Shown: positions 438-40,181 of the stretch, one piece after another
Layout of the letters: every line of letters starts with the position of its first letter
Numbering within the stretch: the first letter of the stretch is position 1
Virus record (IMG/VR): IMGVR_UViG_3300044858_000724
Span: 1 to 40,181 of that record
DNA from: a virus
Direction: 5' to 3' (one strand)
Length of the DNA: 40,181 bases
The notes under the pieces: generated by a model
Told to the model about the DNA's origin: nothing
What the model saw: the letters and a program-made list of their open reading frames with translations, nothing else
Databases searched by the model: none
Position numbers and translations under genes: made by a program

Positions 438-653
438 TTAGTATTCATCCTCAGCAGGTGTTGGGGCTGTAGCAAGTGTACCACATTCAGCACACTCCAT
501 GTCAATAAAGTACATAGCCATGTTGCCATCTTCTTCATCCCAGATTACCTTAACATTCCACACTATACACCCACATGGGCATATAGTCGTCGGCTCACCC
601 CTGACATCCATTGAGTTATAGTAGTCAGGCTTGAGGGTAGTTATATCTTTCAT
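438..653 (-). CDS. Small zinc-ribbon-like protein (71 aa)
   Basis: The start MKDITTLKPDYYN is chosen because its ATG shares one base with the TGA of the upstream transglycosylase gene. An upstream start at 695 would overlap that gene by 43 bases. Two cysteine pairs (CPCGC and CAEC) frame a beta-type stretch that would fold as a small zinc ribbon. The tail is acidic. It is the last gene of the WhiB unit. No named family is recognised. Confidence 0.7.
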   Translation of the reverse strand: MKDITTLKPDYYNSMDVRGEPTTICPCGCIVWNVKVIWDEEDGNMAMYFIDMECAECGTLATAPTPAEDEY

Positions 654-1048
654 CAGTACCACTTCTTTTTCTGCCAGTGCTTCCAAGCGTTGCATGGTGT
701 GTCATAGCGATAATAGATATAGGCTAATCCTCTATCTATCTGCTGTGCTGGCGATAGAGAATGGTCCAACTTGAGCATCTGCGGTATGCCAAAGGCACTA
801 CTGTGCTTATTCTTAGCCTTAGGATTCCATGCGGATTCCTTGCCCCATAGTCTACTCAAGCATACCATTTGCTTGTCTGCCCACATCACCAAGCCATCAT
901 TTGCGTAGGCTAGGCTATCTGCCTTAGTCCAAGCGTGTTGCTTATGTTCAACAGGCTTAGATTCTGGCGTTGGAGAGATAAGAAGTGCAAGTAATACACC
1001 TATAATGATTAGTTGTATCGTTGTTGCTACTAATAGTCCACGTTTCAT
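653..1048 (-). CDS. Membrane-anchored lytic transglycosylase-like protein
   Basis: 131 residues. A hydrophobic segment at about 5-25 is a signal anchor or uncleaved signal peptide. The C-terminal domain has WGKESAWNPKA (candidate catalytic E71), AFGIPQM and a TPCNAWKHWQ ending, the layout of actinobacterial aggregation-promoting/transglycosylase domains that cleave peptidoglycan glycan strands. SD AAGGAGATGAT precedes the ATG just after the WhiB stop. Its place in the regulatory arm, far from the M15 peptidase at 32571-33020, suggests that it is not the sole endolysin. It may act on the wall earlier or provide glycosidase activity during lysis. Confidence 0.78.
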   Translation of the reverse strand: MKRGLLVATTIQLIIIGVLLALLISPTPESKPVEHKQHAWTKADSLAYANDGLVMWADKQMVCLSRLWGKESAWNPKAKNKHSSAFGIPQMLKLDHSLSPAQQIDRGLAYIYYRYDTPCNAWKHWQKKKWY

Positions 1049-1049
1049 A

Positions 1050-1382
1050 TCATCTCCTTAGTAAGGGTTCGATTCTTTTTAACATATTGAACGCAATCTT
1101 TTCAGCAGACCCATCATAGAACTCATCAGGGCTGTGTCCTACTATAGCAAGCCTCTCAGCAGCGAGAAGCCCGCCCCAGATGCCATGCGCTAAGTTTTCA
1201 GGGCGCATACCATCATCCAAGCATCTATCTTTAGCCGGACAGGTAGCACATTCACTTAGAGCATAGTTCACTTGGTATACAACCTCATCCACTCTTGAAC
1301 GAGGTATAGTACCACCAGCGAACTCGGGAAACCAAGCATCTGGGTTGCCGTTGCCAGTACAGTTACCTATGATGGTATCCAT
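1050..1382 (-). CDS. WhiB-family iron-sulfur transcriptional regulator
   Basis: 110 residues with the four WhiB cysteines (C8, C45, C48, C54; CATCPAKDRC) and the GIWGG turn at 67-71 followed by a basic/hydrophobic helix. WhiB-like proteins bind an Fe-S cluster and usually the host principal sigma factor. Phage members can modulate host transcription or superinfection. The start is placed at the ATG that ends palindrome copy 2. The longer frame would need a GTG at 1400 and would translate the palindrome. There is no Shine-Dalgarno upstream, so translation is probably leaderless. The family is essentially restricted to Actinobacteria and their phages. Confidence 0.92.
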   Translation of the reverse strand: MDTIIGNCTGNGNPDAWFPEFAGGTIPRSRVDEVVYQVNYALSECATCPAKDRCLDDGMRPENLAHGIWGGLLAAERLAIVGHSPDEFYDGSAEKIAFNMLKRIEPLLRR

Positions 1383-1396
1383 ATTATTATAATATG
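1380..1396 (-). promoter_or_regulatory. 17-bp palindromic promoter/operator, copy 2 (leaderless whiB)
   Basis: Leftward CATATTATAATAATATG. Its last three bases are the whiB start codon, so a transcript starting six bases after TATTAT begins exactly at AUG. It shares a further flank (GCCAYTAG on the + strand) with copy 1, which suggests the two arose by duplication. Confidence 0.78.
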
Positions 1397-1399
1397 CCA

Positions 1400-1666
1400 C
1401 TAGACTTCACTGCCTTCCGTAATGCAGTCTAATACATATTCAAACTCAGGCAAACGTGCATGAGGTAAGGTAGCACCCTCCCAATAGGTAGAGTATCCAT
1501 TATTCTCATCCCAGTTCAAGCGTACCTCATACTCAGCACCATCATAGGTAATGATTACAGTTTTAGCCCACGCAGTTTCTTCCCTGCCATAGCACTCAAT
1601 CTGTAACTCCCGTAGTGCATCCTGTGTTGCTTGTGCATTTTCGACATCTACATCTATTGCGCTCAA
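1400..1666 (-). CDS. Conserved-looking hypothetical protein (88 aa)
   Basis: Starts at TTG (MSAIDVDVENAQ) one base after the stop of the amidotransferase gene, with AAAGGTGG upstream. It is acidic, has one central YDGAEYEVRLNWDE strand pair and no zinc motif. It is third in the amidoligase-amidotransferase unit, so it may assist that system, but the sequence gives no functional clue. The TTG start is the only in-frame option that keeps the whole N-terminus. Confidence 0.65.
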   Translation of the reverse strand: MSAIDVDVENAQATQDALRELQIECYGREETAWAKTVIITYDGAEYEVRLNWDENNGYSTYWEGATLPHARLPEFEYVLDCITEGSEV

Positions 1667-1667
1667 C

Positions 1668-2507
1668 TTATTCCACCTTTCCTAGTATGTATTGTTCATT
1701 ACGTTTTTGCTTAGCCCAAGCATCCATCTCTGGTGCCCAGCATAGACAATCTCCATCATATATCTGACCGCAATCATAACATGCCATACACATCTCGCAA
1801 TAGTATGGGTTAGCCTCTAAGAACGGTAAGGAACCACAGCCCTGACAGGTAACATCATCTCGCCCGCCCCAACTGCTTAGTAGTTCAGCCTCATTCACAT
1901 CAGGATTCTTGGTGAAGTATTGACCCCACGTCTTATCCCATACAGCAGGTTTATAGGTGTCATTACTCCACCAGATACCTTCGTTATCCCAATGACCTAG
2001 ACCTTCATTGAGGATATAACAGTTATCCCTAGCATCAGGGTCAACAGTAAGTACGGCTATCTTGTTACCACTAGCCCACTTACCTAGTATTTTCCATATG
2101 TTATCGTCATCTAATGAGGTAACGCCACCCATCTTGGGTAGAATATCCTCAGCAAATATGCGCGTGTCGCTACGTCTGTCAGTTGCGTGTATATCTACGT
2201 CAAGGATGCCATTGTGCGCCAAGTAGGTACGCTTATCCCCACCTACTATGAATGGATGGCAGTTCTCTTGATTCTTTACTCCATGCGTGGCGAACCTAGC
2301 ATGAAACATGGCGTATGATGCTGGGTATTGCTTGCGCTTCTCAAGAAACTCAGCAATCATCTTACGTGCAGACATACCTCTGTTGGTAAGTATGCCATCT
2401 GGTGTAATGATAGCATAGCCAAAGCCATGCGGATTATTACACGTGGCACATTCTAAGTCCTTCTTCTTTGGTATCGCATTAGGCGACATTACTGCTAATA
2501 AACACAT
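1668..2507 (-). CDS. Class II (Ntn) glutamine amidotransferase with C-terminal zinc cluster
   Basis: 279 residues. The N-terminus MCLLAV supplies Cys2, the Ntn nucleophile after Met removal. GFGYA, HARFATHG and LAHNGIL are the glutamine-binding and oxyanion segments of GAT-II domains, which release ammonia from glutamine for a partner synthetase. The last 60 residues carry about nine cysteines in zinc-ribbon pairs (CQGCG, CEMCMACYDCG, CLC). SD AAAGGAT overlaps the stop of the amidoligase gene, with a 3-base gap, so the two are translationally linked. It is inferred to be the ammonia donor or mimic-substrate partner of that amidoligase. The substrate is unknown. Confidence 0.85.
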   Translation of the reverse strand: MCLLAVMSPNAIPKKKDLECATCNNPHGFGYAIITPDGILTNRGMSARKMIAEFLEKRKQYPASYAMFHARFATHGVKNQENCHPFIVGGDKRTYLAHNGILDVDIHATDRRSDTRIFAEDILPKMGGVTSLDDDNIWKILGKWASGNKIAVLTVDPDARDNCYILNEGLGHWDNEGIWWSNDTYKPAVWDKTWGQYFTKNPDVNEAELLSSWGGRDDVTCQGCGSLPFLEANPYYCEMCMACYDCGQIYDGDCLCWAPEMDAWAKQKRNEQYILGKVE

Positions 2508-2510
2508 AGT

Positions 2511-3728
2511 CTATCCTTTCGTTTCGAGTACAAGGAGGTCTATTCTAGACATCCGTCCTATCAAATCAGCGTACAGGTCAGCATTGGCTAACACGTACCC
2601 CATAAATGCTGATGGTGTTAGCGCACCATCTTTTATCTCTTGCAACGACATCACGCGAGTATATTCTACACTTGCATGAGCCAAATCTATTGATGCTTTT
2701 ATAAAGTTCTGATTCAAACTACCCCTAAAGATTCGCATCTCTAGTGTATGGCGGTTGATAGTATTGACAGCAGAATACCTATCCGTATCCCTATGATTTT
2801 TTATCTTGTTAGCAAGTGATATTTTGCCTGTGTTGTAATTAACCACGTCAGTAAACTTAGCCCAGTTATCGGACTCACGTCCGGCTAGTTCTGAGTAGAA
2901 GTCCTTATTGTGGTACACCAGTTGCAAGAATCGGTGTTGATGCGCACCACCAGCAAACCCAGCGCGAGATATATGTATGTGGATACCGCAGGTTTTAGTA
3001 CCCCACGACATCATATTCATCTCATCTTTTAACTTGTCGGTAGTATTCCATAACTCTTGCGCCTCATTCTTGAAGTAAGCGTGGGTCATGGGATGGGTAA
3101 CTATCTCGAAGCCACAAGCCAGAGAGCCATCACTCTTGAGATAAGCCAAGTCATAGGCATCCTCTAATCGGTAAGCATACTCAGCCGCTTCTTGGCGCGT
3201 ATCCCAGTTGGCACTCTTGGCTTCTATCTCAATCTCAATACCAAAGTACAGCCTAGTATTGTCGCTATCGGTTGCATAAAAGATAGGGTCTGGCTTGTAA
3301 GAATAATCATGGATGAAACCTCCATCACTCCGACTCTCCTCACATTCCTCACAACCCTCTCTGTTGTAGGAATCACAACCCTCACACCATTCAGCATAAG
3401 ATTCGCAACATGAACTACACCAGTATTCACTCTGGTCATTGAGATAATACTCAGGGTATGTGTGGTACTCAGCATGTCTGTAAAAATTGCAATAGTTAGC
3501 ATAATTGGTAACGCACTCAGCGCACCATATCTGCGAACCATCTACTGTGTGGAAGTTATCATCCATAGAGCCTAAGTCGCCACATCTTTCGCAAGTGTAG
3601 CCACACTCATTGCAGATGTTTTCACCACTACTGGCAATCTGTACATTGAATTCCTCACCAGTATTACTACAGTAACCACAGGTTAGAGGCTCAACAACCT
3701 CATCCTCTGTGATTTCATTTGCTGTCAT
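2511..3728 (-). CDS. Glutamine-synthetase-fold amidoligase with N-terminal multi-zinc region
   Basis: 405 residues. Residues about 17-130 hold some twenty cysteines in CxxC pairs (several zinc knuckles). Residues about 160-400 match the 'putative amidoligase' (COOH-NH2 ligase, GS-like) pattern: GIEIEIE at 163-169, KSDGSL 198-203, FEIVT 207-211, CGIHIHIS 247-254 and EMRIFRGSLN 330-339, which supply metal, ATP and substrate contacts. Known relatives make amide bonds on peptides or small molecules and are often paired with class II amidotransferases, as here. SD AAGGAG follows palindrome copy 3. It is inferred to conjugate an amine or ammonia to a carboxylate on a host or phage protein or wall peptide. 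Confidence 0.85.
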   Translation of the reverse strand: MTANEITEDEVVEPLTCGYCSNTGEEFNVQIASSGENICNECGYTCERCGDLGSMDDNFHTVDGSQIWCAECVTNYANYCNFYRHAEYHTYPEYYLNDQSEYWCSSCCESYAEWCEGCDSYNREGCEECEESRSDGGFIHDYSYKPDPIFYATDSDNTRLYFGIEIEIEAKSANWDTRQEAAEYAYRLEDAYDLAYLKSDGSLACGFEIVTHPMTHAYFKNEAQELWNTTDKLKDEMNMMSWGTKTCGIHIHISRAGFAGGAHQHRFLQLVYHNKDFYSELAGRESDNWAKFTDVVNYNTGKISLANKIKNHRDTDRYSAVNTINRHTLEMRIFRGSLNQNFIKASIDLAHASVEYTRVMSLQEIKDGALTPSAFMGYVLANADLYADLIGRMSRIDLLVLETKG

Positions 3729-3738
3729 GATTTCTCCT

Positions 3739-3755
3739 TATATTATAATAATATG
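3739..3755 (-). promoter_or_regulatory. 17-bp palindromic promoter/operator, copy 3 (inverted centre, one arm base changed)
   Basis: Leftward reading CATATTATTATAATATA: the centre is inverted relative to the other leftward copies and the last base is A instead of G. AAGGAG and the amidoligase ATG follow within about 10 bases. It retains TATTAT and TATAAT -10-like boxes. Confidence 0.7.
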
Positions 3756-10020: not shown

Positions 10021-10590
10021 ATGACAACATTAGTTGCAATACAAGGTGATGGCTGGTCAGTATTAGGATGTGATTCACGCTCAAGTGATGATAGTGGTAG
10101 ACCAATTGATATGGCTACTAATAAAATTATAGAAAACAATGGAATTTTAATTGCTGGTGCAGGTTCTGGTAGAGGTTCTAACCTACTGCAGTTTGGTTGG
10201 AAAGCCCCTAAGCCAACAGCAGCACAAGATTTAGATGTATTCGTAACTCAGACATTTATACCTGCTATGCGTAAGTTATTTGTTGATGCAGGTTATGATA
10301 TGAAAGAGGATGGAGAGGCTGCAGAGCATGATTCATCTTTCTTGGTCTCGGTTAAAGGCGTTATCTACCCTATTTTTGAAGATTATTCTTGGGATAGAGA
10401 TGTTCGCGGCATTTATTATTCTGGTTCTGGAGGCGATGTTGCCCTCGGTGCAATGGAAGCGTTGGGTATATCGAAAGTAACTACCGTAGAGTCTACAGAA
10501 AAGATTGTACGTAAAGCAATAGAGATTGCCTCTAAATGGGACATATATACAAGCAAACCAATTATAACTAAAATACAATTTATTAAGTAG
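10021..10590 (+). CDS. Proteasome/HslV-like Ntn-hydrolase, putative prohead protease
   Basis: 189 residues. MTTLVAI exposes an N-terminal Thr (T2 or T3). GCDSRSSD places Asp18, and K35 follows, near the Thr1/Asp17/Lys33 spacing of proteasome beta and HslV subunits. SGSGGDVALGAMEA at about 138-150 is the conserved Gly-rich helix start of that fold. T-nucleophile proteases degrade peptides after self-assembly. Here the gene lies between portal and the structural genes, where prohead maturation proteases usually sit, so cleavage of scaffold or capsid precursors is the likely role. There is no propeptide, and the start Met would be removed. Confidence 0.75.
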   Translation: MTTLVAIQGDGWSVLGCDSRSSDDSGRPIDMATNKIIENNGILIAGAGSGRGSNLLQFGWKAPKPTAAQDLDVFVTQTFIPAMRKLFVDAGYDMKEDGEAAEHDSSFLVSVKGVIYPIFEDYSWDRDVRGIYYSGSGGDVALGAMEALGISKVTTVESTEKIVRKAIEIASKWDIYTSKPIITKIQFIK

Positions 10591-22709: not shown

Positions 22710-22723
22710 CTAAGGTGGGGACA

Positions 22724-23455
22724 ATGCAAGAAACAGTAGCAATCGCCTGGTGCGATAATGGTATGGTAGATGGCAAGTTTATGCAAGGTTTTACAGATGT
22801 TTTACTTAAGTCTGGAATAAACTTTGTTACTACTCTACGTAGTCAGGGCAATCAAATTGCTCGTCAACGCGAGAAGGTAATAACCTATTGGTATGAGAAG
22901 AACACATCCGATTGGTTACTATGGGTAGACTCAGATGTAGTTATCAGTCCTGAAACATTTAAGTTGTTGTGGGATAACAAAGATGCTAAAAAACGTCCGA
23001 TAGTAAGTGGCGTATACTTTACTACAGATAACCCAGAAGAACCTTTGATGGTTCCTATGCCTACAGTATATGAGTTTGCTGCAGATGAGAACACGGTAGG
23101 GATTAAACGTATACACCCACTACCTGAGAATAAGTTTATAAAGGTAGGCGCTGCAGGTATGGGCTTTGTCCTAATGCACCGCTCAGTAGTAGATAGAATT
23201 ATGGAAGCAGTTCCTAACGCTCCCTTCTTTACAGAAGTTGGCGTAGGCAATTCATTTATGGGAGAAGACATTTACTTCTTTGCCCTATGTGATAAGGCTG
23301 AGATTCCAGTATGGTGCCACACAGGGGCAACAGTGCCACACATGAAGAAGTTTTCTTTTGACGAACATTATTACAAGGCATTCTTTGGTGCAGCAGAGAA
23401 GCCAGTAGAAAAAGCATCAGGTCTTATATTACCAAAACATCATAGAAAGAAGTAA
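22724..23455 (+). CDS. GT-A-fold glycosyltransferase
   Basis: 243 residues from MQETVAIAWCDNG, chosen because AAGGTGGGG is at SD distance. The longer frame would use GTG within it. WVDSDVV (D69, D71) is the DxD nucleotide-sugar/metal motif, KVGAAGMGFVLMHRSV and GEDIYFFALC (candidate catalytic acid) complete the pattern, and C-terminal VPHMKK follows. It would transfer a sugar to a protein or glycan. Location among virion genes suggests glycosylation of tail or capsid proteins rather than DNA. Confidence 0.8.
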   Translation: MQETVAIAWCDNGMVDGKFMQGFTDVLLKSGINFVTTLRSQGNQIARQREKVITYWYEKNTSDWLLWVDSDVVISPETFKLLWDNKDAKKRPIVSGVYFTTDNPEEPLMVPMPTVYEFAADENTVGIKRIHPLPENKFIKVGAAGMGFVLMHRSVVDRIMEAVPNAPFFTEVGVGNSFMGEDIYFFALCDKAEIPVWCHTGATVPHMKKFSFDEHYYKAFFGAAEKPVEKASGLILPKHHRKK

Positions 23456-39749: not shown

Positions 39750-40181
39750 ATATCCTCCCACTCTGCTGGGTCTGACCATCCTTCTTGCTCTGCCATATCC
39801 TTTAATAGTTTATCTCTTGCTGCTTTAACGCATTCTATTATCTGCGCTGGTGTAATCAAATACCCTCTTGTAGGGTTAGGTTGTATATCGCAGGTAATAG
39901 GTCTACCCACAGTATACACAGCCTCCCTTAGTTGCCACAGTGGCATAATCAAGGCTATATCTTGAAGCAGGAATGCCCAATGTGTAGCCTCGCTGACACG
40001 TATGCCTGACGGTTTCCAAGCATTATCATTTACATAGTAACACTCTGTTTCAATGTAAAGATTACCTGTCTCCTGCCATCGTCTATCTGTTTTAACCTCT
40101 ACTGTATCAAGAGAGAGCAAGTCCGCAATCTCACTCTCTCCTCTCTCACCAGCCCGTAGGTCTAAATCCCAATCAGAGTTC
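39746..40181 (-). CDS. PD-(D/E)XK-type nuclease, main part (continues from bases 1-133)
   Basis: On the circle the gene is about 146 residues, starting at base 133. The right-end copy contains VEVKTDRRWQETGNLYIE, then an all-alpha/beta C-terminal half (VSEATHWAFLLQDIALIMPLWQLREAV, ITPAQIIECVKAARDKLLKDM). The missing 5' end lies only in the left copy. It ends 14 bases from the sigma-like gene, convergently. The role is DNA processing, by family motif. This fragment alone begins without a start codon. Confidence 0.7.
   Translation of the reverse strand, partial: NSDWDLDLRAGERGESEIADLLSLDTVEVKTDRRWQETGNLYIETECYYVNDNAWKPSGIRVSEATHWAFLLQDIALIMPLWQLREAVYTVGRPITCDIQPNPTRGYLITPAQIIECVKAARDKLLKDMAEQEGWSDPAEWEDI
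40056..40181. repeat. Terminal direct repeat, right copy (126 bp)
   Basis: Identical to 3-128. See the left copy. Confidence 0.95.

Follow-up and report, generated by a model that had tools for sequence, protein, structure and literature searches.

The phage genome analysed here, a virus record of 40,181 bp referred to throughout as the window, encodes an amidoligase and a class II glutamine amidotransferase (GAT) from neighbouring genes. Both proteins carry the catalytic residue sets and the folds of their families, the two genes are linked and have diverged together, and the pair is passed on as a unit in a large number of phages and mobile elements. We see an even chance that the two proteins are subunits of one glutamine-dependent amide-forming enzyme in which a zinc array on the amidoligase would choose the target. 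Phage amidoligase/GAT pairs are already in the literature (PMC10580990, PMC3890496, PMC5498523 and PMC3517423), and the window pair is a further case of this known type, in an actinophage lineage of which we found no description. Within the accessible portions of these sources we found no earlier mention of the breadth of the pair, its co-divergence, its LIM-like array or the double pair of Nocardia; Iyer 2009 may cover part of this.

The gene block and its surroundings

An identical 126-nt repeat at both ends of the record (3-128 and 40056-40181) suggests that the genome is complete and either circular or terminally redundant and, with its terminase, portal and capsid genes, the window looks like a complete phage record. 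A WhiB gene points to an actinobacterial host. No RNA families or tRNAs were detected in the window. The class II GAT that the first-pass annotation had placed just after the amidoligase is indeed found there on the same strand, and amidoligase, GAT and an 88-aa ORF are consecutive in a leftward block, separated by gaps of 3 nt and then 1 nt (Table 1). The WhiB-like gene occurs in 56 of 66 phage loci, as does the transglycosylase-like gene, which lies in the same block as the pair. The 88-aa ORF had been taken for a partner of the two enzymes. Outside the window it turned up only in close relatives and in a single other contig (L023), and we rejected it as a third component because it is not conserved.

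Table 1. Positions in the window of the pair, its sequence features and the adjoining genes
Feature	Position	Strand	Remarks
Amidoligase (PF12224), 405 aa	2511..3728	-	residues ~1-160 Cys-rich LIM-like array, ~160-400 catalytic
Putative N-terminal zinc array of the amidoligase, 16 Cys, 7 CxxC	3264..3728	-	LIM-structure profile matches
Class II GAT-like protein, 279 aa, Cys2 nucleophile	1668..2507	-	GATase_4, GlmS fold match
C-terminal Cys tail of the GAT, C221-C256, four CxxC	1738..1847	-	
88-aa ORF adjoining the GAT	1400..1666	-	lineage-specific
WhiB-like regulator	1050..1400 (start perhaps ~1382)	-	downstream of the pair; PF02467, E 5e-8
Transglycosylase-like small protein	653..1048	-	downstream of WhiB; phrog_12661, E 4.9e-20
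17-bp near-palindrome, copy of CATATTATWATAATATG with 1 mismatch	3739..3755	.	directly upstream of the amidoligase
All copies of CATATTATWATAATATG	418, 1380, 3739, 4128, 4749, 4856, 5829		ahead of leftward genes

The near-palindrome CATATTATWATAATATG, which has TATAAT inside it, is present seven times in the window against an expectation of 0.04, and every copy falls between bases 418 and 5845. The copy at 3739..3755 precedes an AAGGAG ribosome-binding sequence and the ATG of the amidoligase. L003 and L004, which are close relatives, carry 5-6 copies, and seven more distant members of the lineage that were checked carry none. CATATTATWATAATATG is likely to be a lineage-specific promoter or operator, and the copy ahead of the amidoligase is likely to serve the unit made up of amidoligase, GAT and 88-aa ORF. 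Since further leftward genes are also preceded by a copy, these three genes probably form one transcription unit, with the WhiB-like and transglycosylase-like genes probably forming the next.

Elsewhere in the window, just past the portal gene, bases 10021-10590 (+) encode an HslV/proteasome-like Ntn hydrolase (PF00227, E 2e-6; PHROG label 'peptidase HslV family') that is possibly a capsid maturation protease. A glycosyltransferase-like protein (phrog_34859, E 1.3e-77) is encoded among the structural genes at 22715-23455 (+), a position derived from the sequence.

Catalytic residues, linkage and co-divergence

The assignment of the first gene to the GS-fold amidoligases was upheld by a Pfam match to PF12224 (E 5.5e-9, 36.7 bits against a cut-off of 22), by its catalytic residues and by its fold. 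The motifs ExE, DxS, GxHxH and ExR, which hold the metal/ATP residues, are all present. Across 49 phage amidoligases these residues are essentially invariant: G163, E165, E167, D200, S202, E208, G248, H250, R255, R284, N322, E330, R332 and F334 are 100% conserved and H252 is 98% conserved. The best PDB fold match of the amidoligase model is YbdK (E 2.3e-4); the top matches, YbdK and glutamine synthetases together, span E 2e-4 to 6e-4, and Dop is also among the matches. Mean pLDDT of this model is 55, with the catalytic half alone sound; the structure models were built on shallow alignments of 7-8 sequences, and their zinc regions are therefore unreliable. Comparison with two close relatives gave a dN/dS of 0.24-0.27, reflecting purifying selection. 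Judged by its residues the amidoligase is catalytically intact, and ATP-dependent amide formation is predicted.

The GAT matched PF13230 (GATase_4; E 4.4e-6, 26.3 bits against a cut-off of 23), and its GATase_6 score fell just under the cut-off for that family. In 51 sequences H69, R71, T74, G76, N82, H98, N99, G100 and T115 are 100% conserved, C2 96% and D114 98%; H84 is conserved too. The fold corresponds to the glutaminase domain of GlmS (E 1.9e-7), with PurF and EgtC also matched, and dN/dS against two close relatives is 0.02-0.03, again reflecting purifying selection. By residues and fold the enzyme is intact and glutaminase activity is predicted, and these residues would suit a gamma-glutamyl hydrolase equally well, EgtC being among the fold matches. 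Tandem and single copies in bacteria keep the same catalytic residues of both enzymes with minor exceptions, namely R255 replaced by K in 3 of 36 ligases and variation at the D114-aligned position in 10 of 33 GATs.

In 51 of 57 viral loci gathered by GAT similarity alone, which are not independent because most come from one actinophage lineage with conserved gene order, the amidoligase lies immediately upstream of the GAT (gap -44 to +13 nt); in the remaining six the contig ends within 76 nt of the GAT. Independent cases of linkage are provided by the Marvin-type mycobacteriophages, MEP401/402, podovirus ctgrD200, viral contig L005 and gut contig L008. In bacteria a GAT adjoins 95 of the 107 ligase copies from 69 loci, and four copies run into a contig end. 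Linkage of the pair in relatives, whose absence the first-pass annotation had named as evidence against its reading, holds in phages and bacteria alike. The distance matrices of ligase and GAT are strongly correlated (91 pairs, Mantel r 0.92; none of 2000 permutations exceeded 0.15; r 0.88 within Actinomycetota) and the main splits are common to both trees; host relatedness inflates r, so that the correlation shows joint inheritance and not contact. Fusion of the two proteins as a proof of contact was dropped, none being present among the loci examined.

Known relatives, distribution and cysteine clusters

Marvin-type phages (LittleLaf gp108/gp109 and 18 sister records) likewise encode an amidoligase relative followed directly by a class II GAT. 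Their GAT shares the four-CxxC tail of the window protein and is 34-36% identical to it over 94% of its length, whereas their ligase has 10 cysteines, fewer than in the window, and no WhiB or transglycosylase gene is annotated alongside. Both genes are annotated as 'glutamine amidotransferase domain protein', a label that looks wrong for the amidoligase (L006, 4327-5688) since Pfam gives a sub-threshold Amidoligase_2 match. The pair of the Methylophilales (OM43) phages MEP401 and MEP402, described in PMC10580990, has the same gene order with a slight overlap, but the GAT tail is without CxxC and the ligase N-terminus is longer and different, with about two CxxC. As here, the phiEco32/LUZ24-like/RIO-1 block combines a PF12224 amidoligase with a GATase_6 protein (PMC3890496). 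Those cassettes add an ATP-grasp ligase, a COOH-NH2 ligase and a gamma-glutamyl cyclotransferase, which the window phage is without; the 42 other window ORFs scanned gave no Pfam match to an ATP-grasp ligase or gamma-glutamyl cyclotransferase. PafA and Dop belong, like the window ligase, to the GS-fold carboxylate-amine ligase family, and Dop recurs among the fold matches, but no sequence match to the window ligase was found; to our knowledge they have no GAT partner, and no Pup-like tag was recognized in the window. MurT and GatD are unrelated in fold, being a Mur-ligase-like enzyme with a glutaminase partner of its own, as opposed to the GS fold and the class II Ntn fold. Their two co-transcribed genes provide glutamine-dependent peptidoglycan amidation (PMC3267633).

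The pair is patchily distributed in bacteria. A set of 14 well-known genomes used as controls had no PF12224 match, and in the genus of Nocardia cyriacigeorgica the ligase is present in 40 of 118 genomes, 39 of which carry at least two copies, mostly ~2 kb apart. Ligase-GAT-ligase-GAT tandems were examined at 24 Nocardia-type loci (L077, L102, L086 and 21 others): the upstream ligase reads D-S-S at the DGS motif in all 24 and the downstream ligase D-G-S in 18, which suggests two diverged partners kept together. The neighbourhood of the bacterial pairs is rich in mobile-element genes. Among 100 neighbouring proteins from Clostridia, Bacteroidota and Ignavibacteria there were 12 resolvases, 6 relaxases and 4 integrases (raw counts); neighbours in Actinomycetota are less striking and include Prim-Pol, SSB, integrase, ArdC N-terminal and TraG-like proteins. 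Amidoligase matches also occur on mycobacterial and Clostridioides plasmids, two of which were inspected and had no annotated GAT adjoining. Neither enzyme matched the PADLOC anti-phage defence profiles, and membership of a defence system was rejected on that ground.

Some homologues stand apart from the pair. In Clostridioides phage AR1086-1 (L009, 4919-5929) and a related plasmid (L144, 4850-5860) the gene after the amidoligase encodes a nucleotidyltransferase (RlaP in the phage) and not a GAT. Pseudonocardia homologues near base 7001 of L110, L125 and L139 have no GAT neighbour, and the L110 translation reads as two hydrophobic, membrane-like stretches before the catalytic domain instead of a zinc array. 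A giant polyvalent protein at these three loci was considered and rejected; another frame of the region is also nearly stop-free, and the long open frames are probably an effect of the 72-75% GC.

Of the 'about twenty' N-terminal cysteines first reported for the amidoligase, the cluster stands and the number does not, as 16 cysteines and seven CxxC precede the first catalytic motif; the cysteine tail of the GAT was confirmed, with eight cysteines in four CxxC. Conservation of the zinc regions was also borne out. The ligase Cys columns are 84-96% conserved in the 49 phage amidoligases, except C108 at 6%, and the tail cysteines 88-94% in the 51 GATs, so that the clusters are not due to chance. 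Arrays of the phage lineage have a median of 24 cysteines and those of Actinomycetota 20, against 16 in the window. The array gave profile matches to PDB LIM-domain chains (E 4e-4 to 5e-3) with a heavy composition bias, the similarity resting partly on Cys composition (11.8-bit bias correction). Of 13 ligase homologues, 5 reached the Pfam LIM threshold (best E 3.1e-7), which the window ligase did not. We conclude that the array resembles tandem LIM/treble-clef fingers in sequence, with scores that Cys composition inflates.

The array diverges faster than the catalytic core, at 42% identity (35% without Cys) where core identity is 60-75%. A GAT tail of eight cysteines and four CxxC is found in the actinophage lineage, the Marvin-type phages and, at the median, Actinomycetota. 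In Clostridia and Bacteroidota the ligases retain 11-23 cysteines, whereas the GAT tail has a median of three cysteines and at the median no CxxC. This weakens the earlier suggestion that the clusters bind one another or a shared carrier: where the ligase array is kept and the GAT tail lost, the two do not make up a fixed matching interface. Being LIM-like and faster-changing than the core, the ligase array is more likely to serve in docking a variable target, which it probably picks.

Proposed mechanism and alternatives

In the mechanism that we propose, Cys2 of the GAT would free ammonia from glutamine, and the GS-fold amidoligase would activate a carboxylate with ATP and Mg2+ and couple it to this ammonia or to another amine. 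A true synthetase would require that ammonia pass between the two subunits. The tandem LIM-like array, which presumably binds zinc, may dock a macromolecular target and would diverge following that target, with the catalytic domain held constant. Phages and mobile elements would use the pair on the recipient cell, perhaps on one of the host's proteins or on a wall precursor in the cytoplasm.

If the wall is the site of action, the pair may be a superinfection-exclusion or wall enzyme that amidates or cross-links stem-peptide carboxylates on cytoplasmic precursors, altering adsorption or lysis. Such a role is possible, and we hold it tentatively. Wall modification has been proposed for phage amidoligases (PMC10580990, PMC5498523 and PMC11318856), and the transglycosylase-like gene shares the block of the pair in most phage loci, yet a uniform precursor substrate would be an unusual partner for a fast-changing zinc-finger array. 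The Pseudonocardia homologue L110, which seems membrane-like where the array is expected, fits an enzyme of the wall; the ATP-grasp ligase and gamma-glutamyl cyclotransferase of phiEco32/LUZ24/RIO-1, missing from the window genome, argue the other way. If host proteins are the target, the pair could be a mobile-element protein-modification system whose LIM-like arm brings a glutamine-fed amidoligase to host proteins and amidates or tags them, favouring the incoming element, with Nocardia holding a four-gene set of two diverged pairs. We put this forward as a rather doubtful proposal.

A different division of labour, in which the amidoligase would add gamma-glutamate to an amine and the GAT-fold protein would hydrolyse the product, as in EgtA/EgtC and PuuA/PuuD, appears unlikely to us. 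The strict one-to-one linkage with the GAT second suits a synthetase and its glutaminase at least equally, and the neighbours examined included no genes of the ergothioneine or putrescine pathways, even though EgtC is among the GAT fold matches, the best ligase match, YbdK, is glutamate-cysteine ligase-like, and the conserved GAT residues would, by analogy with GlmS, hold a gamma-glutamyl group. Sequence alone cannot separate this scheme from the synthetase model. Least likely of all, and improbable in our view, is that these are auxiliary metabolic genes aiding host nitrogen assimilation during infection, as proposed for a planctomycete phage with amidoligase and glutamine amidotransferase genes (PMC10945688) and in the classing of the OM43 phage genes (PMC10580990), since a zinc array, a patchy and mobile-rich spread with usually two copies in the Nocardia group, and the lack of PF12224 in the control genomes are all unlike a nutrient pathway.

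Phage amidoligase/GAT pairs have long been labelled 'wall modification' or 'auxiliary metabolism'. With the two-subunit amide-forming enzyme as the preferred reading, a pair that is intact by its residues, linked, co-diverging, accessory and found near mobile genes makes of what was a loose annotation a defined two-component system, ranging from freshwater actinophages to Clostridia. Cultured Marvin-type mycobacteriophages and the Nocardia tandem loci offer test beds for it, and the variable zinc array may serve as a handle for finding the target.
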